NCBI RefSeq assembly: GCF_000301075.1
Contig: NZ_JH932293.1
Span: 829,708 to 893,707 of the forward strand
Reading direction: 5' to 3'
Length of the DNA: 64,000 bases
From: Bergeyella zoohelcum ATCC 43767
Lineage (GTDB): Bacteria; Bacteroidota; Bacteroidia; Flavobacteriales; Weeksellaceae
Part shown: piece after piece, positions 23,199 to 56,431 of the stretch
Position numbering within the stretch: position 1 is the stretch's first letter
Layout: each line of letters begins with the position of its first letter
The notes under the pieces: model-generated
Told to the model about the DNA's origin: nothing
Seen by the model: only the letters and a program-made list of their open reading frames with translations
Database searches by the model: none
Position numbers and translations under genes: made by a program

Positions 23199-23240
23199 GA
23201 AAAAAAGCCCACTGAAAATCAGTGGGCTAAATATTTTTTT
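23199..23240. terminator. Bidirectional terminator between rpoN and ssrA
   Basis: GCCCACTGA (23207-23215) pairs with TCAGTGGGC (23219-23227). It is flanked by eight A on the left and a T run on the right, so it serves both converging genes. Confidence 0.88.
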
Positions 23241-23241
23241 G

Positions 23242-23640
23242 TGGAGCTGGAGGGATTCGAACCCTCGTCCAAACAAGCAATACGCAAGCTTTCTACATGC
23301 TTATTTTGTTTTTAATTTTCGATTGAAAACAGAGAACAAACACCCAATTTCCAACTTATCTTCTAAAGTTTTTCGTCCTTTGACCGAAGCGTTCAAAGGC
23401 TTATTTCTGCATTTCCCATGCCTCATACTCGGACGCCGCAGAACGGAGCTTCCGTGAGACATCTTGTTTCCTTACTGTACTTCGGGAAAAACGCTTATCT
23501 TACTATACTTCAGATTAAGCAGCAAGAGCATACTCTTCGTTGCCAGTTAAATTCTTGTAGCAAGGGATTAAAGAGATCGCGCTACGGTTCTCTGCATGCT
23601 TACTTACCCATTGGTCTTGCTGTCGAAACCGGTCAGCCCC
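23242..23640 (-). ncRNA. ssrA: Transfer-messenger RNA (tmRNA)
   Basis: Read on the minus strand, the RNA begins GGGGCTGACCGGTTTCGACA and ends with a T-arm GGGTTCGAATCCC and AGCTCCA with encoded CCA. The ends pair as the tRNA-like acceptor stem (GGGGCT with AGCTCC). The tag reading frame is 23544-23515: GGC AAC GAA GAG TAT GCT CTT GCT GCT TAA, giving GNEEYALAA. It rescues stalled ribosomes with SmpB, which is not in the window. Apparent protein reading frames on the plus strand here are artefacts. Confidence 0.96.
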
Positions 23641-27226: not shown

Positions 27227-28633
27227 TTATTGATAGGCTCCTAATGTGGGTTGTGCTGTTCGGTTGTTTCCTGTAATGTCTGTAGGAAAGAGTTGTGCTG
27301 TAGCGATATTTCCAGCGTTTTTAGCCGGAGAATGGGCATCTACACGCATATTCATTTTTCCTGAAGTGGTATTAAGGAAAAGAGGATTTTGATTGGCAAT
27401 CGCTTGTGTGATGTTGGTATTGTTGGTCAATGCAAATCCTGCGTTGTTGTTATGATTGAGCAAGATATGCTGAAGTTGGTAATTAAATGTTTGTCCACTG
27501 ATGGGCTTAAAAGTCATAGCGTTATTGGTGGAGGAATAAATGATAGAGTTTCGGATGACGAGGTTCATGGCAGCGTATTCGAAAATTCCTGAAGCTGTTT
27601 TTACTTCATTCGTGGCATAGAGAGAAATACCTTGCCCTATGCTATTATTTTCAAGCCAATAATTTGCTATGGTACAATGATTAAAGGAATAGTTACCACC
27701 TTTATAGAGAGCGATGCTGGTATTTTTACATTGGTTAAAAACAGAGTTACTAGCATGGATGGTAGCATTTTCTGCATAGATGCCATATTCTTCAAAAGTA
27801 TGGATGAGTGTATTGTGGAGGTCAGCAGTGGCATTTTTCAGTATGATGCCTGTATTCCCACCGAAGATTTTAGCATGGTTGAGCTGTAGATGTGCACCAT
27901 TTTCGGCCATGATGGCGTTCCAATTTTTAGGAAGGGTATCATACCGAGGGTCATTTCTATCTCCTCGGAAAATGACAGGTTCATCATAAGTTCCGTTGGT
28001 AGTCAGTTGGGCGTTGGTAGAGAGTTTCATACCACTGTTTTTAGTAAAAATCACTTTCGTTCCTTTCTGTATATTGAGTACAGCATTTTGACCTAAAGTG
28101 AGATTCCCGAAGATGACTTTTGCTTTGTCTTTCGTCCAGGTATGAGTACCCGTGAGGATATTAGGATGGGTATTACTTTCGATGAAAAATTCAGCATCTT
28201 GTACTACAGAGTAGAGCGTTACCGATTGTTGTACATTATTTTTCAATGAAAAAATTACTTTGTCCACGGCGATGAATTCTGGTCGGCTGGTTTGTGGAGC
28301 AATTTCTACAAAGATATAGAGGCTATCATTTTTTCTTAGTGGAACATTAGAAAAAGTATGTCCTGCCTTGCCATCTACATTAATTTTATAGAGAGAGGAA
28401 GCGGACTGTTCCAGTGCTATTTTGGGGATGATGATGTCTTTATTTTCTTCATTATATACCTTAAATGCGTAAGTTTCAGACCTGATTTGGTTGTACACTG
28501 TATCGCATTTTACCGTATCTTTGGAAAACCGAAGCTCTTGAGATGCTTCAGTAAAGCTGATGTCATCGTTTTTACAAGAAATTATCCAAAAAGCGGTGAT
28601 AATGAATGTAATATAGAGAATGAACTTTTTCAT
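27227..28633 (-). CDS. Right-handed beta-helix surface lipoprotein
   Basis: From the start at 28633 the product has a type II signal peptide (WIISC-KND) and about 465 residues. The N-terminal ~150 residues look like an immunoglobulin-like domain. They are followed by many short Asn/Gly/Thr-rich coils typical of parallel beta-helix repeats (ATADLHNTLIHTFEEYGIYA, NATIHASNSVFNQC). It ends TLGAYQ, as in many Bacteroidota beta-helix proteins. Such folds often bind or cleave polysaccharides; no catalytic site is clear. It precedes the sanA-like gene by 7 bases. Confidence 0.8.
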   Translation of the reverse strand: MKKFILYITFIITAFWIISCKNDDISFTEASQELRFSKDTVKCDTVYNQIRSETYAFKVYNEENKDIIIPKIALEQSASSLYKINVDGKAGHTFSNVPLRKNDSLYIFVEIAPQTSRPEFIAVDKVIFSLKNNVQQSVTLYSVVQDAEFFIESNTHPNILTGTHTWTKDKAKVIFGNLTLGQNAVLNIQKGTKVIFTKNSGMKLSTNAQLTTNGTYDEPVIFRGDRNDPRYDTLPKNWNAIMAENGAHLQLNHAKIFGGNTGIILKNATADLHNTLIHTFEEYGIYAENATIHASNSVFNQCKNTSIALYKGGNYSFNHCTIANYWLENNSIGQGISLYATNEVKTASGIFEYAAMNLVIRNSIIYSSTNNAMTFKPISGQTFNYQLQHILLNHNNNAGFALTNNTNITQAIANQNPLFLNTTSGKMNMRVDAHSPAKNAGNIATAQLFPTDITGNNRTAQPTLGAYQ

Positions 28634-28671
28634 AATGTGCTGTATTAATACCATGATTAGCCAAAAGTACA

Positions 28672-28679
28672 CAAATTTG
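28672..28679 (-). promoter_or_regulatory. -7 box for the beta-helix/sanA-like operon
   Basis: TACTTTTG on the minus strand ends 38 bases before the ATG at 28633, and lies upstream of the longer in-frame reading's first codons, supporting the shorter start. Confidence 0.5.
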
Positions 28680-28732
28680 ATTAAATTTTAGAAAAAAAAT
28701 ACAAAAACATTGGTGGAAAAGAAAAAATAATT

Positions 28733-28740
28733 TACTTTTG
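28733..28740 (+). promoter_or_regulatory. -7 box for rpmE2
   Basis: TACTTTTG is preceded by a -33 TTG at 28710-28712 with a 20-base spacer. It implies an untranslated leader of about 75 bases. Confidence 0.6.
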
Positions 28741-28821
28741 CACCCTGAAACCCACCGAGGAAGATCCATTACTATTCTGAGGTATTATTTCAATAACTAA
28801 TTTAGCAAAAAAGAAATTAAA

Positions 28822-29073
28822 ATGAAACAAGGTATCCACCCAGAGAATTATAGACTTGTTGTTTTCAAAGATATGAGTAACGACGAGATGTTCCTTTGCA
28901 AATCTACTGCAGAGACCAAAGACACTATTGAGTACGAGGGAGAAACTTATCCTTTGATTAAAATGGAAATCTCTTCTACTTCTCACCCTTTCTACACTGG
29001 AAAAGTGAAGCTTGTAGATACAGCGGGTAGAGTAGATAAGTTTATGAATAAATACAAGAAATTCGCGAAATAA
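28822..29073 (+). CDS. rpmE2: Ribosomal protein L31 type B
   Basis: The 83-residue protein shows [14 protein letters not shown], then [11 protein letters not shown], then [13 protein letters not shown], which is the type B L31. Only one Cys is present, so the zinc ribbon of type A L31 is absent. Type B is often made under zinc limitation in other bacteria, but in Bacteroidota it can be the only L31. It is monocistronic with its own promoter, a ~75-base leader and a strong terminator. Confidence 0.95.
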
Positions 29074-29100
29074 TAGCGTTTTATCTTATCAGGATAACAG

Positions 29101-29130
29101 CCTTTCTCATTTTGAGAAAGGTTTTTTTTT
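29101..29130 (+). terminator. Terminator after rpmE2
   Basis: CCTTTCTCA (29101-29109) pairs with TGAGAAAGG (29113-29121), followed by nine T. Confidence 0.9.
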
Positions 29131-29225
29131 GTGAAAGTGCTAGATTTAATGGTATGGTGTATTTCGCTCTAAAGAGAATAAGTGAAGGTTTTGGTTTAAA
29201 ATTTTGATATTCCAACTATTATTCA

Positions 29226-29233
29226 TACCTTTG
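29226..29233 (+). promoter_or_regulatory. -7 box for rimP-nusA-infB
   Basis: TACCTTTG lies 99 bases before the rimP GTG start, leaving a long leader that contains a terminator-like hairpin. Confidence 0.55.
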
Positions 29234-29258
29234 CAGGGTAATTATGGATTGAAATGGG

Positions 29259-29283
29259 AGGCTTCGGAAGAAAGCCTTTTTTT
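29259..29283 (+). promoter_or_regulatory. Terminator-like hairpin in the rimP-nusA-infB leader (candidate attenuator)
   Basis: AGGCTT (29259-29264) pairs with AAGCCT (29272-29277) around a 7-base loop and is followed by seven T. It sits between the promoter and the first gene, so many transcripts may stop here. A two-codon reading frame (ATG GAT TGA) precedes it. Confidence 0.5.
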
Positions 29284-29332
29284 GTATCAATAATTAATGG
29301 GATTTTTTATTCTTTTTTAAACTATTGAAATC

Positions 29333-29800
29333 GTGGAATTTAAAAGCGAAATAGAAAGGCTGTTGCAAGAGTTTTTATCTGAAAGAGAAGACCTTTTTTT
29401 GGTCAATATGAAAATCTCTCCAGCAGATGATGTTACGATAATCTTGGATGGAGATCATGGCGTAAAAGTGCAAGATTGTTTAGATGTGAGCCGTGCCATT
29501 GAATTTAATATGGATAGAGAAGCACATGATTTTTCTTTACAAGTGATGTCCGCGGGACTCAGTGAGCCGCTTACCATGCCGAGACAGTATAAGAAGAATA
29601 TTGGAAGGAAAATTTCGGTTACTACCCAAGAGGATACAGTACTAGAGGGAGAATTGTTATCCGTGGATGATGAGAAAATTACACTCCAAAGAAAATACAG
29701 AAAACCTAAAGACATAGGAAAAGGAAAAATGGATGTGGTAGAAGATACGGATATTGCCTTTTCTGAGATTAAAAAAGCCCTTGTGGTGATTCAATTTTAA
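29333..29800 (+). CDS. rimP: Ribosome maturation factor RimP
   Basis: RimP aids 30S subunit assembly. The 155-residue protein has the N-terminal domain with VKVQDCLDVSRAIEFNMD and the strand SLQVMSAGLSEPL, then the C-terminal Sm-like barrel (GRKISVTTQEDTVLEGELLSVDDEKITLQ). The start appears to be GTG (29333); no ATG fits nearby. It is the first gene of the conserved rimP-nusA-infB operon, 39 bases before nusA. Confidence 0.92.
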   Translation: MEFKSEIERLLQEFLSEREDLFLVNMKISPADDVTIILDGDHGVKVQDCLDVSRAIEFNMDREAHDFSLQVMSAGLSEPLTMPRQYKKNIGRKISVTTQEDTVLEGELLSVDDEKITLQRKYRKPKDIGKGKMDVVEDTDIAFSEIKKALVVIQF

Positions 29801-29839
29801 TAAAAGACTCCTCCAAAGGAGAAATAACATAGAATAAAT

Positions 29840-31075
29840 ATGAATAATCTAGCATTAATAGAAGCATTTGGTGATTTTAAAGATGAAAAAAGCATCTCTA
29901 AAGTAGACCTGATGGCAATTATAGAAGAATCATTAAAATCATTACTTCGTAAGCGTTTTGATTCTGATGATCATTTTGATGTGATTGTAAATCCAGATAA
30001 AGGGGATTTTCAGATTTTCCTTAATAAAACCATTGTAGAGGATGAAATGTCTGAAGATGATGACCTCGAGATTGAAATTTCTGAAGCTAAAAAAATAGAC
30101 CCTACTTTCGAGGTAGGAGAAGAGTACAGTGAGGAGATTCCTATTGATAAATTAGGAAGGAGGAATATCCTTACACTGAAGCAAATTTTGGCTACTAAAC
30201 TTCAAGAATTTAATAATAATTTGCTAGAATCTCAGTTTAAGGATAGAGTAGGAGAAATCGTAGTAGGAGAGGTGCATCATATTAGAAAGCAGCATGTTAT
30301 ACTTTTGGATGATGAAGGGAATGAGTTTATCCTTACCAAAGATCAGCAGATTCCTTCGGATTATTTTACAAAAGGTGAGAGCGTAAGAGCTGTCATTGAT
30401 AGAGTGGAAAATAAAGGCGGAAAACCACAGATTATGGTTTCTAGAACTTCTCCTATTTTCCTAGAAAAGCTATTGGAATTTGAAATTCCTGAAATTCAAG
30501 ACGGAACTATCCTTCTGAAAAAAGTAGTGAGAATTCCTGGAGAAAAAGCGAAAATAGCGGTAGATGCTTATGATGATAGGATAGACCCTGTGGGAGCATG
30601 TGTAGGCGTGAAAGGCTCAAGGATTTATGGGATAGTAAGAGAGCTTAGAAATGAAAACATAGATGTGATTCAGTGGTCTAAAAACCCAGAAGTACTCGTA
30701 AAGAGAGCATTAGGGAATGTAACCATTAATAAGGTAGAGCTCAATCCTGAGGAATCTTATGCATTAGTGTACACGCCGAGTGAAGAGATTTCTAAAATCA
30801 TCGGTAGACAAGGACAGAATATTCGTTTGGCTTCGTGGCTTACAGGATATGAAATTGATGTGTATAGAGAAACCAGTGAAGATGATGATGTAGAGCTCGA
30901 TGAGTTTAAAGACGAAATCGAAGGATGGATCATCGATGAATTTAAAAAAGTAGGGCTCAATACAGCGAGAAGTGTATTAGACAAAGATGTAGATGCCCTT
31001 GTTAATCTTGTGGATTTGGAAGAGGAACAAATAGATGCTGTTCGTCAAATCCTTAAAGAAGAATTAGAGGCTTAA
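29840..31075 (+). CDS. nusA: Transcription termination/antitermination factor NusA
   Basis: NusA binds RNA polymerase and stimulates hairpin-dependent pausing and termination. The 411-residue product has the N-terminal polymerase-binding domain and an S1 domain (GEIVVGEVHHIRKQHVILLD). KH domains follow with DPVGACVGVKGSRI and EISKIIGRQGQNIRLASWLTGYEIDV. It lacks the C-terminal acidic repeats of E. coli NusA, as is normal outside Proteobacteria. It may act on the hairpin in its own leader. Confidence 0.95.
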   Translation: MNNLALIEAFGDFKDEKSISKVDLMAIIEESLKSLLRKRFDSDDHFDVIVNPDKGDFQIFLNKTIVEDEMSEDDDLEIEISEAKKIDPTFEVGEEYSEEIPIDKLGRRNILTLKQILATKLQEFNNNLLESQFKDRVGEIVVGEVHHIRKQHVILLDDEGNEFILTKDQQIPSDYFTKGESVRAVIDRVENKGGKPQIMVSRTSPIFLEKLLEFEIPEIQDGTILLKKVVRIPGEKAKIAVDAYDDRIDPVGACVGVKGSRIYGIVRELRNENIDVIQWSKNPEVLVKRALGNVTINKVELNPEESYALVYTPSEEISKIIGRQGQNIRLASWLTGYEIDVYRETSEDDDVELDEFKDEIEGWIIDEFKKVGLNTARSVLDKDVDALVNLVDLEEEQIDAVRQILKEELEA

Positions 31076-31132: not shown

Positions 31133-34003
31133 ATGGCAAAAATCAGATTAAAAAAAGCAGCGAACGAATTTAATATCGCTACCAAAAGTGCTGTAGAATT
31201 CCTTCGAAGCAAAGGCATCGAAGTGGAAGATAACCCGAACGCACAGTTGGAAGAAGCTGCTTACGATGCCCTAAAAAAGGAATACGCCAAAGATAGCGAG
31301 CTGAAAAAAGCATCGCAAGAGGTGGTAATATCCAAAGCACCAGAAGAAAAACCGGAGCCAGAAACCCCGAAACAGGAAGTTATTCGTGCAAAAGCCAAAA
31401 CACCAGAAACTAAAATCCTGGGGAAAATAGATCTTGATGCACTTCAATCTGCCTCTCCCGTAGAAGAAAAACCAGCAGAAAAACCAGCTCCTGTGGAAAT
31501 ACCTCAGGAAGAAAAAATTGTGGAAAAACCACAAGAAATCAAAGAAAATAAAGAGGAATCTTCAGAAAAATCTGGGCTTAAAGTTTTGGATAAAATAGAC
31601 CTCAGTACTTTGGACCAATCCCCTACTCGTCCTGTGAAAAAGGATAAGAAAGAGAAAAAAGCAAAGGCTTCTACTCCGTCTGTAGAGAAAAAAACGAGTG
31701 AACAAAAGCCTGCTGTACCTCAGGAGAAAAAAGAGCAGAAAAAGGCTGAGCCTGTAGTAGAAAAACCAGTACAAAAGGAAATTACCACAGTGAAATTTGA
31801 AGAGCCTGAGAAAATAGAGACCGTCTATAAGAAATTAGATGGACCGAAAATTTTACAAGAAAAAGTAGATTTATCTCAGTTTCAGAATAAGCCAAAGCCT
31901 TCGGATAAAAAGAAAAAAAGAAAGCGTATAGAGAAACCTGCTAATAATACAGGGAATAATAACGCCGGAAATAGTAATTCGGGTAACAAACAAAACCAAG
32001 GTGGAAACAGAAATAATAACCAAGGTGGAGGTAACCGAAATAACCAAGGAGGAAACCGTAGAGGGGGTAAACGAAATGAAAGACCTGCTCCAGTAGAACT
32101 TACCGATGAGCAGGTGAAAAACCAAATTAAGGAAACTTTAGAAAAACTCACTAATAAAGGAGGAAAATCTAAATCTTCTAAACACCGTAGAGATAAGCGT
32201 TCTTTCCGTAGAGAACAAGACGAAAGAGCAATGGAGATGGAGGCTCAAGACAGAACACTGAAAGTAACTGAATTTATTACCGTAGGTGAGCTGGCAAGTC
32301 TGATGGATGTAAGCCCTACGGAGGTGATTTCTGCAATTTTCTCTCTCGGAGTAATGGTAACCATGAACCAACGATTAGAGGCGGATACACTTACCTTAGT
32401 GGCAGATGAATTTGGTTATAATATTGAGTTCCAAGATGCAGAATTAGAAGAAGATAGCGAAGAGCAAGTAGATAATGAGGAAGATATGGTGCATAGAGCA
32501 CCTGTGGTTACCGTCATGGGACATGTGGATCATGGTAAAACATCTCTCTTGGACTATATCAGAAAAACCAATGTCATCGCTGGAGAATCTGGAGGTATCA
32601 CTCAGCACATTGGGGCATATAATGTAAAATTAGAAAACGGACATCGCATCACTTTTCTAGATACTCCTGGACACGAAGCCTTTACTGCCATGCGTGCAAG
32701 AGGAGCCCAAGTAACGGATGTAGTCATCATCGTAATTGCTGCGGATGATGATGTAATGCCTCAAACTAAAGAAGCCATTGCACACGCTCAGGCGGCAGGG
32801 GTACCTATGATTATTGCGATTAATAAAGTGGATAAGCCTACTGCAAATCCAGATAAAATTCGTGAGCAGCTTTCTGCACTCAATGTATTGGTGGAAGAAT
32901 GGGGAGGAAGCGTGCAGTCTCAAGAAATTTCTGCTAAATTCGGTAATAATGTGGATTTACTTTTAGAAAAAGTACTTCTCCAAGCGGAAATGCTAGAATT
33001 GAAAGCCAACCCAAATAGAGTAGCTAATGGTACCGTGATAGAGGCATCTCTAGACAAAGGTAGAGGGTATGTGGCCAATATGCTCATCCAAGCAGGAACA
33101 CTCAGAGTAGGAGATTATGTGGTAGCAGGTAAAAACCATGGTAAGGTAAAAGCCATGCTAGACGAAAGAGGTAAAAACCTTAAAGAAGCAGGTCCTTCTA
33201 TTCCAGTAACCATTTTAGGATTGGATGGTGCTCCTACCGCTGGGGATAAATTTAAAGTTTATACCGATGAAAGTGAAGGGAAATCGGTGGCGAGTAAAAG
33301 GGAGCAGCTGCAAAGAGAGCTTTCCATCCGAACGAAAAAACATACTACGCTGGAAGAATTGGGAAGAAGAATTGCCCTTGGTGATTTTAAAGAACTCAAT
33401 ATCATCCTTAAAGGAGATGTGGATGGTTCGGTAGAAGCACTTTCAGATCAGCTTCAAAGACTTTCTACAGAGGAAATCAATGTTAATATACTACACTCAG
33501 GGGTTGGGCAGATTACCGAGTCTGATGTGAACCTTGCTACGGCATCGGATGCTATTATCATTGGATTTAATGTAAGAGCCGGTGCGAATGCCAAAGAATT
33601 GGCAGACCGTGAAGAAATAGAAATCCGTACTTATTCAGTTATCTATAAGGCGATAGAGGAAGTGAAAGAAGCAATGGAAGGAATGCTTTCGCCAGAGATT
33701 AAGGAACAAGTTATTGGTAGCGTGGAAATCCGTGAGGTGTACAAAATTTCTAAGGTGGGAACCATCGCAGGATGTATGGTACTTAGCGGAAAGGTTACTA
33801 GAAACTCTAAAGTTCGTCTCTTGAGAGATGGTATTGTGAAGTTTGATGGGGAATTAGAAAGTTTAAAACGCTTTAAAGATGATGTAAAAGAAGTAACTAA
33901 AGGCTATGAATGTGGTATCAGTCTAAAAGGATACAATGACATTGAAACCCTTGATCTTCTAGAAATTTACGAAGAAGTAGCGGTGAAAAAGAAGTTGAAA
34001 TAA
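31133..34003 (+). CDS. infB: Translation initiation factor IF-2
   Basis: This GTPase brings initiator tRNA to the 30S subunit. The 956-residue product has an N-terminal IF2 domain and a long Lys/Glu/Pro-rich linker with an Asn/Gly run around residues 265-320. A second IF2_N follows ([18 protein letters not shown]). The G domain has [22 protein letters not shown] and NKVDKP, and domains II-IV end in [17 protein letters not shown]. It is the last gene of the operon, closed by a terminator. Confidence 0.96.
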
Positions 34004-39579: not shown

Positions 39580-39650
39580 ACGGGCATCGTCCAATGGTAG
39601 GATACCGGTCTCCAAAACCGTTGATCAGGGTTCGAATCCTTGTGCCCGTG
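39580..39650 (+). tRNA. trnW: tRNA-Trp (CCA anticodon)
   Basis: The 71-base cloverleaf has acceptor ACGGGCA (39580-39586) pairing with TGCCCGT (39643-39649). The anticodon loop CTCCAAA gives anticodon CCA, and the T-arm is GGTTCGAATCC. The 3' CCA is not encoded. secE starts 13 bases later. Confidence 0.95.
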
Positions 39651-47989: not shown

Positions 47990-48046
47990 GAAGTTAGAGT
48001 TTAGAAATTAGAGGTTGGAGTGTAGGCCTATAGTTTCATGCCTTCT
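47990..48046. repeat. Modular intergenic repeat
   Basis: GAAGTTAGAGTTTAGAAATTAGAGGTTGGAG is built of the same TAGAAGT/TAGAGAT words found reversed at 55520-55560. Confidence 0.55.
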
Positions 48047-48052
48047 GCTTAA

Positions 48053-51000
48053 TTAGTTTCCTGTTACCCGAATGATGGCTTTCATGATTTGGTCTTCTTT
48101 TTCTTTAGCAAAAGTAGAATCATATGGGGTTACCACATCGAACATATTGCTGTAGAAAGGTGTGATGAGCTGTACTTCATCAGAAGAGAGATGGGCTTTT
48201 TCTACTCCCATTTGCTCTAAGTCTTTCACAAAATCATTAAATCTTTTATCAATCGGTTCTAAGGATTTTATGATATAGGCATACCCTTTATCTTTTTTGT
48301 CTATATTTTTATATGCATCAGATACGGCAGCTACTACCATAGCATATTCGGCGGCTTTTGTACGGATTTCTCTTTTAGAAAATCTTCTTCTATTTTCAGG
48401 AAGATTCATATAGAAATTGTATTCTTTTAAAATATTTTTTAGCTGAGTTTCTGCCAATTTCAGTCCTTTTTGTTCTTGTCCAGCCATGATATATCCGTTA
48501 ATAATGAAACTCATAGATCTTGGGTCATCATATTTAGCGGCAGGAATTTCCTTAGAGATTTCATCTAATATTTCTATAGCTTTAGCTTTTTGTCCCATTT
48601 TTACTAGAGATTCTGCTGCTCTTCCTACGATATTTCGGTATGAATAAATATTAGAAAGTGCAGACTCATCAAAATGTACATTTGTATCTCTAAATCCACC
48701 CCACTTGAATTTTTTAATCGTGGTATAGAGTTCATTGGCATCAGTTCTACCCATTTCGCCATCCTCGCGCATCTCTGTACGGATAGGCGTAAGGCGATAA
48801 TTAAATCCATCAAACTGGAGATAATCATGCAGATAGAGAGTGTTTTCTTCGCTGTAAATACCACCATTGGAAAACTGTATAGCTCTGCTCCAGTCAAAGG
48901 TAGAAAGCATATCAAAGAGGATGAGGCTGTTTTTAAACATGGTACTCGCCTGATAATGAATCACTATTTGGTCATCGGCTTTGTCCATATCTTCTGCCTT
49001 TAAGATGCCTGCCTTCACCGCATTGGCTTTATTTACAGGGATGACAAATCTAGAAACAGGAAGGAAATTGTATCTTTCGTATCGGTCTTCGCCAAAAAGC
49101 ATTTTCAGCATTTCGTCTTTCTCTGGACTTTTGGTTTTCAGAAATTGAAGTGCTTGTTTTCCCGTCATTTGGTCATGCTCTATATACTTTTGAACAAAAG
49201 CAAATTTCTGTGGAGATTCTCCCTCAGCAATTTTATTATCAATAAAGTTTTTCAATGATTTCGCATCGAAAACCACTATCTGATTATTGGTTCCCTCTCG
49301 GTAATCTTCGTATTTCAGGGTAGTAGGAATGGCGGCTGCATGGTATGTTTTTCTTAAATTTTGGGCAATATTCCATGGTGTAGATACCAATTCCCAGTTC
49401 ACCACTTTTACATCACTTCTAAACTCTTCTGTTTCTTGAATGGCCCAAACAGGGTAGGTGTCATTATCTCCATACACAAAGAGAATAGCGTTTTTAGGGA
49501 GCCCTACCAGAGAAGAATACGCATAGTCATACGCTGCAGTTCTTCCGCTTCTATCGTGGGCATTATAATTTTGGAAGCCCATCATGAGAGGAATTCCTAA
49601 AAGTAAAGTTCCCGCTCCTAAAGAAAGGTTTTCTTTTTTTGTCTTTTTACTAATAAATTCCATAACTGCCAAAGCACCTAGCCCCATCCAGATTCCTACG
49701 ATATAAAATGAGCCTACCATCGCATAGTCTCTATCTCTTGGTTCAAAAGGTTTTACACCAGTATAGAAAATGATACCTATGCTGGTAAGGACGAAAACGC
49801 TAAGTAAGGCATAATTTCGGCTGAAATCTCTATTAGAATAAAAGAAGAAACCGATAATTCCTAAAATAAGGGGTAGGAAGTAGAACTTGGTGGTACTTGC
49901 ATTGGTGTATTTTGCTGGAAGCTCATCTTGATTACCAAGGCGATAGTCATCTAAGAATGAAAAACCAGAAATCCAGTTACCTTTTGCATCGTCTTTGGCA
50001 CTGTCCATATCATTTTGTTTCCCCACGAAATTCCACATGAGATACCTGATGAAATAGTAGCCTACTTGGAAGTCAATAAAATAAGTCATATTCTGAACGA
50101 AAGATGGCTTATGTACTTTGACCAGATCATACGGCTTTACATCCAGATAGTCTTGCACTTTCATATTGCCTTCTTGGAATTTCTTTTGCAATTCCTGAAA
50201 AACTTGGTTCGCTTCTTCAGAGTCGTACACATCAGGATTATCCGTATTGAGTGAAAATTCAGGAGCACCATACATGGAAATATAGTTGGCCATGACTTCC
50301 TTCTTTTCATTGAACATTCTTGGCATAAAGCTGATATGGTCAGGATGATAGACATAGTTAAATCTTTCTCCTACGGCCAAATATTTACCAGATTTTTCAT
50401 CTTTTTCATATACCGTTCCTGTGGTCTTGATTTTATAGCTACCATCATCATTTCTTAATATTCCATTGTAATCTAAGTGTGCAGTATAGTTCTGCCCGTA
50501 CAAGGTAGGCCAATCTCCGTACTGTTCACGATTATAATAATCTAGCATCCCGATGGCGTTATCAGGATTATTTAGGTTCATCGGTGGATTGGCATTCGCA
50601 CGAATAGGAATGACAAGCCAACATGAAAATCCGATGAGCATATAGACCAATGATAAAACAGCCGTTTTGAGTAAATTATTTCTCTTTTTCTGAGCGAAAC
50701 GAATGAGCCAAAAACAAAGCCCAAATAGTACGATGAATGCAATAATAGTCCCTGAATGGAATGGTAACCCAATGCCATTTACAAAGAAAATTTCTGTCTT
50801 CCCGAATACTGTCATCACCAGTGGGAATATGATTTTAAACACGAATGCCAATACGAAAAGCGTGGCAATATTCGCAATAGCAAAAGATTTCCATGTAAAT
50901 GAGTACTTTCTAGCGTAATAAATAAGACAAACTGCAGGAACTGCCAGCATACACATCATGTGAACGCCCACAGAAAGCCCCAAAAGAAAGAAAATAAGCA

Positions 51001-51532
51001 CCAGCCACCTTTCATTTCCATTTTCATCTGCTACAATGTCCCATTTGGTAATGAGCCAAAGCATAAGGGCAATGAAAAGCGATGCCATAGAATACACCTC
51101 TCCCTCTACAGCTGAATACCAAAAAGTATCTGTAAAAGCGAAGCCTAAAGCACCTATGATTCCTGCTAAAAATACAGGAAGTGGATTTTTATTTTCTTGA
51201 TTTTTAAAGATGTATTGTGATGAAAGATTGGTTACTGTCCAAAATAGTAAAAGTACCGTTAAAGCACTGAAAAATGCAGACATGAGATTAATTACCAAAC
51301 CATAATTTTCAGGATTTCCAAAGGCAAAAAGCCCCGCCACAGCACCTGCCAGCTGAAATAAAGCGGCACCAGGAGCATGGGTAACTTCTAATTTTACTGC
51401 CGAAGCAATGTATTCCCCTGTATCCCAAAAACTAAATTTAGATTCTGCAGTAAGTCCATAAACGGTAAAAGCAATGAGGAAAATAGCCCATCCGATGATA
51501 TTATTCCACTTTTTGTATTCTAAGTTTTTCAT
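48053..51532 (-). CDS. DUF2723 multi-spanning membrane protein, likely glycosyltransferase-related
   Basis: The 1159-residue protein has an N-terminal ~600-residue part with about 14 membrane helices. The DUF2723 opening is FSFWDTGEYIASAVKLEVTH with HAPGAALF, a GT-C-like Asp placement, and NTDTYPVWAIQE-type text follows (GDNDTYPVWAIQE). The C-terminal ~400 residues are soluble and helical, ending in TPR-like repeats. DUF2723 proteins are widespread in Bacteroidota and are thought to act in protein O-glycosylation; this is inferred. A -7-like box (TATTTTCG) ends 5 bases before the ATG. Confidence 0.85.
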   Translation of the reverse strand: MKNLEYKKWNNIIGWAIFLIAFTVYGLTAESKFSFWDTGEYIASAVKLEVTHAPGAALFQLAGAVAGLFAFGNPENYGLVINLMSAFFSALTVLLLFWTVTNLSSQYIFKNQENKNPLPVFLAGIIGALGFAFTDTFWYSAVEGEVYSMASLFIALMLWLITKWDIVADENGNERWLVLIFFLLGLSVGVHMMCMLAVPAVCLIYYARKYSFTWKSFAIANIATLFVLAFVFKIIFPLVMTVFGKTEIFFVNGIGLPFHSGTIIAFIVLFGLCFWLIRFAQKKRNNLLKTAVLSLVYMLIGFSCWLVIPIRANANPPMNLNNPDNAIGMLDYYNREQYGDWPTLYGQNYTAHLDYNGILRNDDGSYKIKTTGTVYEKDEKSGKYLAVGERFNYVYHPDHISFMPRMFNEKKEVMANYISMYGAPEFSLNTDNPDVYDSEEANQVFQELQKKFQEGNMKVQDYLDVKPYDLVKVHKPSFVQNMTYFIDFQVGYYFIRYLMWNFVGKQNDMDSAKDDAKGNWISGFSFLDDYRLGNQDELPAKYTNASTTKFYFLPLILGIIGFFFYSNRDFSRNYALLSVFVLTSIGIIFYTGVKPFEPRDRDYAMVGSFYIVGIWMGLGALAVMEFISKKTKKENLSLGAGTLLLGIPLMMGFQNYNAHDRSGRTAAYDYAYSSLVGLPKNAILFVYGDNDTYPVWAIQETEEFRSDVKVVNWELVSTPWNIAQNLRKTYHAAAIPTTLKYEDYREGTNNQIVVFDAKSLKNFIDNKIAEGESPQKFAFVQKYIEHDQMTGKQALQFLKTKSPEKDEMLKMLFGEDRYERYNFLPVSRFVIPVNKANAVKAGILKAEDMDKADDQIVIHYQASTMFKNSLILFDMLSTFDWSRAIQFSNGGIYSEENTLYLHDYLQFDGFNYRLTPIRTEMREDGEMGRTDANELYTTIKKFKWGGFRDTNVHFDESALSNIYSYRNIVGRAAESLVKMGQKAKAIEILDEISKEIPAAKYDDPRSMSFIINGYIMAGQEQKGLKLAETQLKNILKEYNFYMNLPENRRRFSKREIRTKAAEYAMVVAAVSDAYKNIDKKDKGYAYIIKSLEPIDKRFNDFVKDLEQMGVEKAHLSSDEVQLITPFYSNMFDVVTPYDSTFAKEKEDQIMKAIIRVTGN

Positions 51533-51537
51533 ACCTG

Positions 51538-51545
51538 CGAAAATA
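51538..51545 (-). promoter_or_regulatory. -7-like box for the DUF2723 gene; predicted leaderless
   Basis: TATTTTCG, one base from TAnnTTTG, is separated from the ATG at 51532 by CAGGT. Confidence 0.4.
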
Positions 51546-51691
51546 CGATTTTTTATTATAAATGCTCAGTTTACAGGTTAGAGATTAGATTTTTTACTAA
51601 GATATAGTGATGTGGTTTGATTATTGTTACAATAGAGATTGTTTGCTTATACTACTTCCTTTCGGTAAGATATATTAACAAAAAAATAAAA

Positions 51692-51740
51692 ACAAAATCA
51701 CATAGAAACATCTGATGAAGATATGTCTATGTGGTTTTAA
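51692..51740. repeat. Dispersed palindromic element, copy 2
   Basis: AAAATCACATAGA (51694-51706) pairs with TCTATGTGGTTTT (51726-51738) with one G-U. The right arm CTATGTGGTTTTAA is identical to copy 1 at 6430-6443. The rest of the 51546-51825 gap shows nothing else. Confidence 0.65.
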
Positions 51741-51825
51741 ATTTGATTTATGACAATCTTAATACTTTAAAAATAGATAACGATTTTCTCTAATAAATGA
51801 CAGTTCTTGTTACAATTATTACCCC

Positions 51826-53106
51826 TTAATTCTTATAAAACTCTATGGTTTTATCTATTGCATCGGTACAAACAGGACAAAATCCATCGGGAACATTAGA
51901 TTTCATTCTACAATCTTGTACAGGGCTATAAATGCCCTTTGCGGTATATCCTCCTCCCTCAAAAACCCCTACTTCATTTTTGTATTGATCTATTCTGGGC
52001 GTAGGAATGGGCACATTTTTTTTGATTTTCTTTTTCCATTTTTGCTCAAAATTAACCAATGAGGTGATATTGGGTTCCCAAGGTTCTACAGAAAGATGAT
52101 AATAATCAGAGCCGCCCATAGAAGCGTCATAGTATTCATCTGCCAAACCTACCATACCATGTCCCAACTCATGTACGAAAACCTTATCAGAAAGTACATG
52201 CCGAGAAGAAACAATATTCATTACATTATAAAAACCACCACCGCCATAGCGTTCGGTATTAACTAAGATATACACTTGGTCATAAGGAACATTGGCTGCT
52301 ACATCGGCGATTTTAAAATTGGAAAAAGTAGTAAGATATCTCGGTTCACCGAAGGTGTAAAATTTGGAATCTAGCAAGGTATTTTTATAGGTATTTTCCC
52401 CTGGAATATCTGTCCCCGATTCTTGGGAAGGACTTTGTATAGCGTAAATATTAAAATCGTTCTTATATTTGGTGAAAGGCGGAATTGTAAAGAAATAATT
52501 AATCAGCCTTTGGGCATCCTCCATGAATTTAGGCATTTCTTCTAGCGTGTATCCTTCTGCAATGATGGCGATATCTACCTTATTTTTAGGGTTTCCATTA
52601 TTCAAAATGGGATGGACAGGGTATTTTTTAGTTTGTTCCTTTACAATACTCATGTCCGAAGGATTTACCGCATGCTGCAAAATAGTTTCAAACAGCCCTT
52701 GGATATTTCTCTTTTGAATTTCAATGATGATTTCCCTCTTTGGAAATGGCATTTGAATAGAGTTCTCAAATGATTTTGTAATATGCTTTGCCTCATCTGT
52801 CGCTTGCCACTCTTGAAATATGGGACTAAAACCTTTGGAAAAAATAAGTTGTCTAGATGCTTTATCTTTTGCCAAGAAATGGTAGGTTCCATACGCAGGA
52901 AAAATCAATTGTCCCGAAGTGCCTCCTCCGAAATAAGGCTCTTTTTTCAGCTGATGAATCACTGCATTTTGGTGATTATGCATTCCGTAAAGCAAAAAAT
53001 CTATCCTTAAACTTTCCTTCTCAAAAAAATCATCATAACTGATTTTTTGGGCGGAAAAAAATACCGTGGATAGTAAATAAATAGTGAATATTAACAGTTT
53101 ATTCAT
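51826..53106 (-). CDS. Secreted M64-family zinc metallopeptidase
   Basis: From the start at 53106 the 426-residue product has a signal peptide ending FFSAQ. An N-terminal beta domain is followed by the M64 (IgA peptidase-like) catalytic domain with VDIAIIAEGYTLEEMPKF and the zinc site H312-E-L-G-H316 followed by D323 (HELGHGMVGLADEYYD). Cys residues near the end (QDCRMKS, FCPVCTDAI) may form disulfides. Substrate unknown; IgA cleavage should not be assumed. It lies 42 bases after the S9 peptidase gene. Confidence 0.88.
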   Translation of the reverse strand: MNKLLIFTIYLLSTVFFSAQKISYDDFFEKESLRIDFLLYGMHNHQNAVIHQLKKEPYFGGGTSGQLIFPAYGTYHFLAKDKASRQLIFSKGFSPIFQEWQATDEAKHITKSFENSIQMPFPKREIIIEIQKRNIQGLFETILQHAVNPSDMSIVKEQTKKYPVHPILNNGNPKNKVDIAIIAEGYTLEEMPKFMEDAQRLINYFFTIPPFTKYKNDFNIYAIQSPSQESGTDIPGENTYKNTLLDSKFYTFGEPRYLTTFSNFKIADVAANVPYDQVYILVNTERYGGGGFYNVMNIVSSRHVLSDKVFVHELGHGMVGLADEYYDASMGGSDYYHLSVEPWEPNITSLVNFEQKWKKKIKKNVPIPTPRIDQYKNEVGVFEGGGYTAKGIYSPVQDCRMKSNVPDGFCPVCTDAIDKTIEFYKN

Positions 53107-53148
53107 GGTTTGACACAATAGAAACTTCAAATAAAATATAAAAATCGG

Positions 53149-55287
53149 TTATAAATTTTCTTTAATGTACTTAGTCATTTTATTGTACAGCTGAATGCGG
53201 GTATTTCCACCATAGATGCCGTGGTCTTTATCAGGATAAGTCATAAATTCAAATTGTTTATTTTTCTGAATGAGTTCTTCTGCAAACTCCACTGCGTTCT
53301 GGTAGTGTACATTATCATCTGCCGTTCCATGAATCATAAGAAAATTTCCTTTGAGCAATCCCGCATGAGTCGTTGGCGAATTCTCATCATAGCCTGATGG
53401 ATTTTCCTGTGGCGTTCGCATAAATCTTTCGGTGTATATGGTGTCATAATAACGCCAATTGGTTACAGGAGCTACCGCAATGCCTAGTTTAAAGACATCT
53501 GCCCCTTTGGTCAGTGCCAAACTTGCCATATATCCTCCAAAGCTCCATCCGAAAATACCAATTCTGTCTTTGTCTATATAACTTTGTTTTCCAAGCCATT
53601 TTGCTGCGGTAATTTGGTCTTCTATTTCATATTTTCCTAAATTCATATAGGTGGCTTTTTTATATGCCGTTCCTTTATAACCTGTTCCTCTGCCATCTAC
53701 ACACACTACAATGTATCCTTGCTGCGTAAGATGATTGAACCAAAGCCCATTCCCACCATCCCAAGCATTTTTCACCTGCTGAGAGCCAGGTCCAGAGTAC
53801 TGGAACATCAGTACGGGATATTTTTTATTTGGGTCAAAATTTTTTGGTTTTAGGATATAAGCATTCATCTCATCTCCCACCGCATTGGGTATGGTAAAAA
53901 ATTCTTTATTCACCATCCCATCGGCTTTTAATTGGGTAAGTAATTCATCGTTATTTCTTAGCATTTGGACTTGTTTCCCATCGTTATTTTTTAGTACGAA
54001 AGTGTTGGGTTTTTTAGCCGAAGAATGTGTTTCTATAAAATAAGAAAAATTCTGAGAAAAATTTGCGGAATAAGTTCCTTCCGTTCCAGAAAGCAAAGTG
54101 GATTTTCCATTTTTCAAATTGACTTTCGCAATCACTCTATTGATGCTCCCCTGCTGCGTGGTTTGTAAGTAAATACTATTCCTTTTGGCGTCAAATCCAT
54201 AGTAATCCGTTACTTGCCAGTTGCCTTTAGTAACTTGTTTTAGGAGTTTTCCGTCTTTGTTGTAGTGGTAAATATGCCTATTTCCATCTCTTTCACTTGC
54301 CCATAGGAATGAATTATCAGGTAAAAAAGCAATGGTAGCATCATCATTATCTATCCATTTACTATCTGTTTCTGTAAAAAGTTTTTTTACCGCACCGTTT
54401 TGGGTATTGATTTTCAATACATCGGATGCATTTTGAATTCTTTCCGAAGTTACTAAAATCACCTCATCGTTCCCATTGGTCTGAAATACATTGGGGATAT
54501 AGTAATTCTTAAACTGAGAAAGGTCTATTTTCTGTAAATTACCACTTGCCAACTGATAGAGATGTGCAGAAACTACAGAGTTTTTTTCTCCTGCCTTAGG
54601 GTACTTAAATCGCATTTCTGTAGGATATAGATTTTTCCCATAAATAGGAATGCGTACTTCTGGAACTTCAGATTCATCAAAACGAACAAAAACCAATGCG
54701 TCAGAATTCTTATTCCAATCAAACATTCGGGCATGCCCAAACTCCTCTTCGTACACCCAATCTGCAAGTCCATTAATGATTTTATTTTTCTCGCCATCGT
54801 TGGTAATTTGTACCACTTTATGGTTTTCTAAATCCTGATAGTACAAATTGTTTCCTGCTACAAAAGCCACTTTTTTACCATCGGGAGAGAATTTAGGTTC
54901 TTGAACGAAATGAGCTCCATACAGCTGCGTAGTTTTTCCTGTAACCAAATCTAATATTTCAAATTTGCCGAGGTAAGAATGTCTATACACCTTCTCACTT
55001 TTCTTTCTCAAAAGGACTTTAGACTCATCATCAGAAAAGGTATAACCTTCAAATGAACCTTTAACGATAACTCCTATCTTAGTAGAATTCTTATAGGCAT
55101 ACTTTGCTATACCTTCTTTTTCTAAAACCGTGTAATGTTCCCCATCCCTTAATGAGGATATCCCTGCTATTCCTTTGGCTTTATATGCACCTGTGTAGAT
55201 TTTTTCTACAGTAATTTCCTGACCATAGGCGGAAAAACCTAAAACAAACATCCATGCCACTACGGCAGATTTCCTTATCACTTTCAT
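53149..55287 (-). CDS. S9 family peptidase, dipeptidyl-peptidase IV type
   Basis: The 712-residue exported peptidase has a signal peptide (ending SAYGQ), an eight-bladed beta-propeller with DWVYEEEFG near residue 180, and an alpha/beta hydrolase domain. The EEE stretch matches the pair of Glu residues that hold the substrate's free amino end in DPP-IV. The triad is Ser582 in GWSFGGY, Asp657/658 in HGTADDNVH, and His689 in DKDHGIYG. It should release X-Pro or X-Ala dipeptides, which the nearby peptide transporter could import. The start at 55287 fits the signal peptide. Confidence 0.93.
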   Translation of the reverse strand: MKVIRKSAVVAWMFVLGFSAYGQEITVEKIYTGAYKAKGIAGISSLRDGEHYTVLEKEGIAKYAYKNSTKIGVIVKGSFEGYTFSDDESKVLLRKKSEKVYRHSYLGKFEILDLVTGKTTQLYGAHFVQEPKFSPDGKKVAFVAGNNLYYQDLENHKVVQITNDGEKNKIINGLADWVYEEEFGHARMFDWNKNSDALVFVRFDESEVPEVRIPIYGKNLYPTEMRFKYPKAGEKNSVVSAHLYQLASGNLQKIDLSQFKNYYIPNVFQTNGNDEVILVTSERIQNASDVLKINTQNGAVKKLFTETDSKWIDNDDATIAFLPDNSFLWASERDGNRHIYHYNKDGKLLKQVTKGNWQVTDYYGFDAKRNSIYLQTTQQGSINRVIAKVNLKNGKSTLLSGTEGTYSANFSQNFSYFIETHSSAKKPNTFVLKNNDGKQVQMLRNNDELLTQLKADGMVNKEFFTIPNAVGDEMNAYILKPKNFDPNKKYPVLMFQYSGPGSQQVKNAWDGGNGLWFNHLTQQGYIVVCVDGRGTGYKGTAYKKATYMNLGKYEIEDQITAAKWLGKQSYIDKDRIGIFGWSFGGYMASLALTKGADVFKLGIAVAPVTNWRYYDTIYTERFMRTPQENPSGYDENSPTTHAGLLKGNFLMIHGTADDNVHYQNAVEFAEELIQKNKQFEFMTYPDKDHGIYGGNTRIQLYNKMTKYIKENL

Positions 55288-55369
55288 TTTCAAATACAAT
55301 TATGGGCTAAATATACTATTTTTAAGACGATGTCTAAACTTTATGATAATAAAAATGCTACAAGCAGGG

Positions 55370-55582
55370 AAACTGTTGGCGTATGGTGATTAGCTTATAG
55401 CAATTAACCTTATAATGTTTTAGTTTTCTAACTTCCAATTTCTAAAAATCTTTGTACACAATACAATCAGACAAGTAGCCATACGCCAAAAGTCTTTATA
55501 CATTATACTTTGTACATCGTACAATTTCTAATCTCTAACTTCTAATTTCTAAAAGTCTTTGCACATTGTACAATTTCGTGCA
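55370..55582. repeat. Largest modular intergenic repeat block
   Basis: The block contains runs such as CTAATCTCTAACTTCTAATTT, words such as TATACTTTGTACATCGTAC and TTTGCACATTGTACAATTTC, and a perfect 11-base inverted pair, TTGGCGTATGG (55376-55386) and CCATACGCCAA (55479-55489). It runs right up to the panC stop. It is made of the same words as the gaps at 45300, 47990, 59215 and 61771. Confidence 0.75.
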
Positions 55583-56431
55583 TCAAGCTATTTTCATATT
55601 ATCAATCAGTCTAACGCCTTCTAAATGAGCTACCAAAAATGCTCTGTAAGATAAGTTTGGGAGAATCTCAGTAGCTGTGCGAAGCGTCTTATCATCAGCA
55701 ATAACAAAATATTCTAATTCAAAATCAGGATGTTTACTGAAAATCTCTTTTACTCTATTTTCTATTTCCGAAACACTCATTGTCTTGCTCCAATGGCGTA
55801 TTTCATTTAATGTCTCATAAATCAGTACGGCATCTTTTTTCCCTTTTTCACTCAATCTGAGATTTCGGGAACTCATCGCCAATCCATTTTCCTCACGCAT
55901 GGTAGGCACCGAATGAATAGCTATGGAAAGGCTTTTCAATTCTACTAATTTTCTAATTACCGCTACCTGCTGATAATCTTTCTCCCCAAAATAGGCATTA
56001 TCAGGCTGCACTTGACTAAAAAGCACCTCCACTACCGTGGCTACGCCTTGGAAATGTCCAGGTCTAAATTTCCCCTCCATCAGTGTTTCTATTTCCCCTA
56101 ATTCATAATGATTACTCTTGGTGCCATTAGGATACAAATCCTTTTCTTTAGGCAAGTAAAGTGCATCTACCAAGCCCGACTGTGTTAGTTTTTCTATATC
56201 TTGAACGATGGTGTTCGGGTACTTTTCAAAGTCTTCTTGATTATTAAACTGCGTGGGATTTACGAAGATAGAAGAAATTACAATGTCATTTTCAGGTCTT
56301 GCAGCTTGGTAGAGAGAAATATGCCCTTCATGTAAAGCTCCCATGGTAGGTGCAAAACCAATGGTTTTATTCTGTTTTTTACAGTTTTCAATGTATTCTT
56401 TGAGCACTTCGTAGTTGTCTAATACCCTCAT
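55583..56431 (-). CDS. panC: Pantothenate synthetase
   Basis: PanC joins pantoate and beta-alanine with ATP. The 282-residue product has the HIGH-like nucleotidyl motif APTMGALHEGHISLY, VNPTQFNNQEDFEKYP, GKFRPGHFQGVATVV, YFGEKDYQQVAVIR, MREENGLAMSSRNLRLS. A reading extended to 56599 crosses the -7 box and adds an A+T-rich hydrophobic stretch, so it was rejected. panB and panD are not in the window. Confidence 0.95.
   Translation of the reverse strand: MRVLDNYEVLKEYIENCKKQNKTIGFAPTMGALHEGHISLYQAARPENDIVISSIFVNPTQFNNQEDFEKYPNTIVQDIEKLTQSGLVDALYLPKEKDLYPNGTKSNHYELGEIETLMEGKFRPGHFQGVATVVEVLFSQVQPDNAYFGEKDYQQVAVIRKLVELKSLSIAIHSVPTMREENGLAMSSRNLRLSEKGKKDAVLIYETLNEIRHWSKTMSVSEIENRVKEIFSKHPDFELEYFVIADDKTLRTATEILPNLSYRAFLVAHLEGVRLIDNMKIA

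Follow-up and report, generated by a model that had tools for sequence, protein, structure and literature searches.

Why would a small terminator-like hairpin stand between the promoter of the rimP-nusA-infB operon and its first start codon, and which of the operon's genes does it serve? The question arises from a leader in Bergeyella zoohelcum ATCC 43767, located within the 64,000-nucleotide stretch of DNA that was analyzed as a whole and is referred to here as the window (contig NZ_JH932293.1, positions 829,708 to 893,707 of the forward strand). The initial annotation had described a 6-bp stem followed by seven T (29259-29283) between the promoter and the rimP GTG, and a direct reading of the letters confirms it exactly. 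The promoter, TTTG-N19-TACCTTTG, spans 29203-29233 and fits the Bacteroidota consensus, TTTG being what we take to be the -33 promoter element of this phylum. On the plus strand, TANNTTTG is present in a single copy within 29074-29340, namely in the -7 box. The hairpin is composed of the stem arms AGGCTT (29259-29264) and AAGCCT (29272-29277) around the loop CGGAAGA (29265-29271), has an energy of -7.9 kcal/mol with outer pairs included, and its U-tract ends 49 nt ahead of the rimP GTG. The features of the locus are as follows.

29203-29206, plus strand: -33 element TTTG, read from the sequence, with N19 between it and the -7 box
29226-29233, plus strand: -7 element TACCTTTG, read from the sequence; the consensus TAnnTTTG is named in the text of PMC9723704
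29237-29243, plus strand: putative transcription start region, placed from the position of the -7 box
29254-29256, plus strand: AUG directly 5' of the stem, a candidate ribosome entry site with A at -3
29259-29277, plus strand: terminator hairpin AGGCTT-CGGAAGA-AAGCCT, from sequence, folding and swap tests
29277-29283, plus strand: U-tract of seven T, read from the sequence, the first T being paired in the stem
29333-29800, plus strand: rimP, which opens the operon and starts with GTG (Pfam RimP_N, DUF150_C)
29840-31075, plus strand: nusA (Pfam NusA_N, KH_5)
31133-34003, plus strand: infB, encoding IF2 (Pfam IF-2, IF2_N, GTP_EFTU)
28822-29123 including its terminator, plus strand: rpmE2 (bL31), upstream of rimP (Pfam PF01197)

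The closest named relatives of the NusA encoded here are those of Chryseobacterium and its kin. A short inverted repeat, CTCC-TTTG-GGAG, separates the rimP and nusA genes at 29807-29825 and has a T-rich flank on the minus strand. Elsewhere in the window, a tmRNA (23239-23640, minus strand) and a tRNA (39580-39650, plus strand) account for all Rfam matches that reach the gathering score in the window, and the GC skew is negative at about 48000-56000 and positive in the other 4-kb steps.

The first issue is whether the hairpin belongs to the operon downstream of it or to the gene upstream. The upstream neighbor in the window is rpmE2, in the same orientation, which is what one would expect if the hairpin were a gene-end terminator or an insulator against transcription from upstream. 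However, the initial annotation had held that the rpmE2 transcript is already served by a terminator of its own, and this is borne out by a terminator-like hairpin at 29099-29123 (-12.3 kcal/mol), which is stronger than the one in the leader. Furthermore, rpmE2 precedes the rimP operon at only 1 of 111 family loci, that of the window's species, while 83 of the 111 family loci having enough upstream sequence carry a GTGYVG-motif ORF in divergent orientation, presumably of the UDP-sugar dehydrogenase type. A promoter box also precedes the T run in all 130 distinct family leaders. A second way to detach the hairpin from the operon would be to place the main promoter 3' of it, and this candidate is likewise disfavored: the window has no TTTG between the U-tract and the start (29284-29332), and 16 of the 130 relatives hardly have room for a promoter, their U-tracts, as placed by alignment, ending no more than 12 nt from the start codon. 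Given the divergent upstream genes and these short distances, both the gene-end and the downstream-promoter readings fail at the loci concerned, and we regard the former as hardly credible for the element in general. Anatomy and conservation agree in giving strong support to the original proposal that the hairpin is a leader terminator, or attenuator, belonging to the nusA operon, rather than the point where the rpmE2 transcript ends.

Conservation within the Weeksellaceae was assessed with 130 leaders that are distinct over the 130 nt upstream of the operon, drawn from 156 loci. The other 26 loci have an identical 130-nt upstream sequence; L082 (a stretch without RimP) and L001 (a duplicate of the window) were dropped as well. 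A hairpin with U-tract at -5 kcal/mol or better is present in 130/130 leaders, compared with 5.4% of 650 shuffles, using an energy-based finder. This finder was adopted since a strict one (no stem mismatch, loop up to 10), which recovered 86/130 leaders versus 3.1% in shuffles, missed 44 leaders that by eye nearly all have a mismatch or a longer loop; by chance alone the energy-based finder is the laxer of the two (5.4% versus 3.1% of shuffles). A variant demanding an outer G-C pair detected the hairpin in 128/130. The promoter is conserved along with it. All 130 leaders contain an exact TANNTTTG that is followed 25-66 nt downstream by a T run, and each folds a hairpin at such a run with an energy of at most -4. 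By chance, TANNTTTG would turn up in 10.5% of the 75-nt stretches 5' of the hairpin once these are shuffled. TTTG is found 17-21 nt before the box in 101/129 leaders versus 10.1% in shuffles. As the sequences are related, none of these family counts represents independent events.

Beyond the family, loci were collected via RimP_N (PF02576), yielding 100 stretches of which 97 were usable; L162, L181 and L190 were dropped for their odd length. The hairpin was detected in 51/52 loci from the rest of the order (Flavobacteriales), in 16/20 from the remainder of the class, a set comprising all 20 listed loci, and in 24/25 from other classes of the phylum, compared with 49/291 in the shuffle control. 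The six misses are L160, L206, L218, L221, L226 and L229; three loci (L160, L186 and L226) were scored unchanged even though their anchoring looks faulty. The -7 box accompanies the hairpin at 49 loci of the order, 15 of the class and 4 of the other classes. Stems of the order and class are largely of the GGGGAC/GTCCCC type, and the GGG..CCC signature is found in 44/51, 14/16 and 9/24 loci of the order, class and other classes, respectively, but in just 1/130 leaders of the Weeksellaceae.

Such changes of stem sequence permit a swap test, in which each 3' arm is offered its own partner or a foreign one. With U-tracts set by folding, which was possible for the 221/227 loci with a hairpin found, 18/42 distinct 3' arms had a perfect Watson-Crick partner in their own leader compared with 32/1722 foreign trials. 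The folding-based choice favors the own partner, so the test was redone without folding, using the six nucleotides that precede the T run and requiring a Watson-Crick partner at the 172/227 family and outer loci having both box and T run. Here, 10/33 distinct arms matched their own partner versus 24/1056 foreign ones. When restricted to the family, the 6-nt arms gave a weak difference (2/14 own versus 9/182 swapped), and other arm definitions ranged between 0/3 and 5/8. Sequence comparison across the phylum has thus shown a predicted stem that changes together with its matching partner, for which the family alone is not sufficient.

The leader hairpin is also above chance when judged against its own genome. 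A pattern scan of both strands of 28500-30000 returned four terminator-like sites versus a mean of 0.6 in shuffles. In 464 kb of the 2.33-Mb genome (20 sampled 20-kb stretches plus the window), the order of box, hairpin with U-tract and start codon was encountered before 3/384 genes, rimP included, or 3/114 of the genes that have a -7 box in their upstream gap. The other two (L267 at about 6060, plus strand, and L271 at about 16732, minus strand) may be attenuators or chance occurrences. Among the relatives, the family core AGGC(N)TTCGNAAGAANGCCTTTTTT is found in 15/59 genomes, once each and always just 5' of rimP, while its reversed control pattern had 0 matches in the 59 genomes. Occurring solely before rimP, the core does not serve as a terminator in these genomes at large. 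As terminators go, the leader hairpin is a modest one: at -7.9 kcal/mol it is weaker than 85/103 gene-end hairpins of its own genome (median -13.0), and the family median for the leader is -9.3 kcal/mol, in a comparison where the sequence limits differed slightly between the sets and gene-end hairpins entered only down to a cut-off of -4.

Which gene, then, does the leader accompany? At 57/57 outer loci tested, nusA follows rimP, so that their co-occurrence cannot tell which of them the leader serves. Genomes lacking rimP can. Thirty-six genomes are without a RimP_N match, and 15 were examined among 20 listed, the remaining five being further small genomes from family f15. The RimP_N match is absent from 12/12 genomes of one Flavobacteriales family as well as from G204, G206 and G240, tblastn of the sequence surrounding nusA detected no RimP at the rimP-less loci, and the upstream stretch contains no ORF of at least 80 aa at the seven rimP-less loci checked. 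For DUF150_C, nothing exceeded the cut-off in the first seven rimP-less genomes, which had two weak matches inside other long frames; this domain is a weak test of absence, as G198, which has a RimP_N match, also falls below the cut-off. Many of the rimP-less genomes are incomplete. Twelve loci with sufficient sequence were counted, all from non-endosymbiont Flavobacteriales, nine of them from one family and three from three others; outside this count are G244, whose locus (L295) has a contig edge inside nusA, and G268, G455, G457 and G461, in which no NusA was found.

At every one of these 12 loci, nusA is preceded by a TANNTTTG box and, 3' of the box, a hairpin with U-tract, compared with 12/600 shuffles. 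The hairpins lie 20-147 nt ahead of nusA, and by reading, eight of the 12 stems are of the GGGC/GCCC and eleven of the GGG/CCC form. An infB gene was found at all 12, on the same strand after nusA in the seven checked. The upstream surroundings differ: G206 has divergent ORFs upstream of its leader, whereas in G204 a same-strand ORF ends upstream, and the hairpin there could also be the end of that ORF. At five loci (L285, L286, L287, L292 and L284), a tRNA-like gene, by eye a tRNA-Gln, directly precedes the nusA promoter and hairpin. Six small endosymbiont-like genomes of the order were kept apart from the count of 12; none of the six has a box and hairpin before nusA, while two have a box-less hairpin there. 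Since the leader is kept before nusA at 12/12 rimP-less loci, the element follows nusA, or nusA-infB, and not rimP. On these comparative grounds, the leader is a putative part of the nusA transcription unit. RimP is unlikely to be its reason for being and is similarly disfavored as effector or main target.

When compared with known systems, the closest parallel is the rimP-leader (Naville and Gautheret 2010), a terminator hairpin in the rimP-nusA-infB 5' UTR with a GGGc(...)gCCC stem, for which NusA was named the best effector candidate (PMC2965389). As described in the text of that article, the rimP-leader shares with the present leader the operon position, the hairpin with its T-stretch, a variable short distance to the start and a common form without a visible antiterminator, and the 49 nt in the window fall within the 4-130 nt from terminator to start stipulated there. 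The two differ in that the published GGGc/gCCC motif is absent from the AGGCTT/AAGCCT stem of the window, as from nearly all of its family. The main text of that article contains neither the word Bacteroidetes nor the word Flavobacter. Over the leader, Rfam yielded no match at gathering score and nine sub-threshold matches. One of these, to the rimP leader of Gammaproteobacteria (RF01770), shares the operon position and overlaps 29227-29319 with 13.6 bits (E 9.1), but the gathering score of that model is 47, a level attained in 0/59 relatives and 1/14 control genomes. In its presumed mode of action the leader resembles the published rimP-leader, yet in sequence it is a variant, with neither the GGGc/gCCC stem nor an RF01770 match. 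Another resemblance concerns Flavobacterium psychrophilum, for which the text of PMC9723704 reports a structured, transcribed 5' element before rimP, conserved in other Flavobacteriaceae genera and likewise without an Rfam match. That element belongs to another family, has no mechanism given in the account cited, and is likened here by description, not by sequence. The words rimP and nusA are absent from the main text of a Bacteroides thetaiotaomicron transcriptome study (PMC7366714), and in the literature searched, mostly open-access main texts, we found neither a NusA attenuator in Bacteroidota nor its retention in rimP-less lineages.

With respect to the effector, Bacillus subtilis offers the precedent. 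There, NusA promotes termination within the leader of its own operon (PMC12288461, citing Mondal et al. 2016), and feedback by NusA is established in Bacillus (PMC12288461) and proposed for rimP-leaders in general (PMC2965389). The nusA leader terminator and the proposed feedback are common to both organisms, whereas NusA dependence was demonstrated in B. subtilis and is inferred here, in another phylum, with another promoter type and another hairpin sequence. It is by this analogy that we consider NusA a plausible effector and, the leader terminator itself being real and conserved, feedback by NusA likely.

Based upon these features, we think it likely that 29203-29332 constitutes a promoter and leader in which a conserved premature intrinsic terminator controls rimP-nusA-infB under negative feedback by NusA. 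RNA polymerase would start about 20 nt before the hairpin, judging by the position of the box. Some transcripts would then stop in the U-tract (29277-29283), releasing a leader RNA of approximately 40-47 nt, and the remaining polymerases would read through into rimP-nusA-infB. A high level of NusA would increase stopping and a low level would favor readthrough, such that NusA probably limits its own production through the leader terminator, as in Bacillus. Termination at a hairpin this weak should depend upon a factor, presumably NusA. Together with the B. subtilis precedent and the persistence of the leader beside nusA where rimP is missing, this makes NusA the better motivated effector.

Several other readings, which are not mutually exclusive, deserve to be weighed against NusA feedback. 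The same attenuator could answer to another effector, with IF2, NusG or another RNA-binding protein setting the readthrough. IF2 is a candidate since infB is present at all 12 rimP-less loci, and a protein site could be sought in the UUUACGG of the 5' element and the CGUA after the U-tract, which lie outside the hairpin and are conserved in the largest clade (80/104 distinct segments). We nevertheless judge a different effector to be unlikely, although not negligibly so, given that at the corresponding B. subtilis leader the effector is known to be NusA, as reported in the work cited above.

The AUG beside the stem raises a further scenario, namely a ribosome-gated terminator, in which initiation at 29254 would block the hairpin and termination would report the capacity for translation initiation. 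Bacteroidota, to our knowledge, are without Shine-Dalgarno sequences. An AUG no more than 9 nt before the stem is found in 76/91 distinct family leaders versus 17% in shuffles, and the window has the A at -3 that, according to an abstract on Flavobacterium johnsoniae, favors translation initiation. Outside the family, however, this enrichment is modest (20/44 versus 26% in shuffles for the rest of the order and 3/15 versus 12% for the rest of the class), and no conserved reading frame or peptide was found to begin at the pre-stem AUG in the family leaders. Moreover, the sign of the feedback would presumably be wrong for IF2 homeostasis. The AUG with its A at -3 is enough for a ribosome-gated version to be entertained, but we consider it improbable. 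The gating is compatible with NusA, and an equally doubtful elaboration is a two-input switch, in which a NusA-dependent hairpin would be under the additional control of a ribosome initiating at the basal AUG; if true, this would allow the NusA/IF2 operon to sense both termination-factor and translation-initiation capacity. A conventional leader-peptide attenuator was rejected, as the AUG is common but comes without a conserved peptide or a frame overlapping the terminator.

Lastly, the hairpin might act on the mRNA, through stability or translation, or as a DNA operator, and not on transcription. Chryseobacterium leaders provide the argument for it, in that the RNA 5' end can pair with bases past the U-tract and so enclose the hairpin; 47/130 leaders place this helix in the best 5% of their own shuffles, many of them of the Chryseobacterium type and few others. 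This sole long-range pairing examined encloses the hairpin rather than excluding the terminator, and it is unsupported in the window, where 88/100 shuffles are equal or better. In addition, leaders that differ in stem sequence retain a U run immediately 3' of the stem. An action of the hairpin outside transcription therefore strikes us as very unlikely, and the enclosing 5'-end helix was rejected as a general feature. As an observation in its own right, the 5' end GGAUUUAC can pair with GUAAAUC just after the U-tract in L098, L114, L026, L028 and others; if true, the GGAUUUAC-GUAAAUC helix would enclose the hairpin and hide the 5' end of the readthrough mRNA.

For the flavobacteria, the significance of NusA feedback at this leader is twofold. 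Firstly, lineages without rimP separate two hypotheses that co-occurrence alone cannot, and they suggest that the brake goes with nusA and not with rimP. Secondly, a likely counterpart of the NusA leader can be traced through a phylum that uses another promoter type, with its stem signature replaced in one family. Feedback by NusA, or by IF2, would thereby become directly testable in a laboratory flavobacterium.
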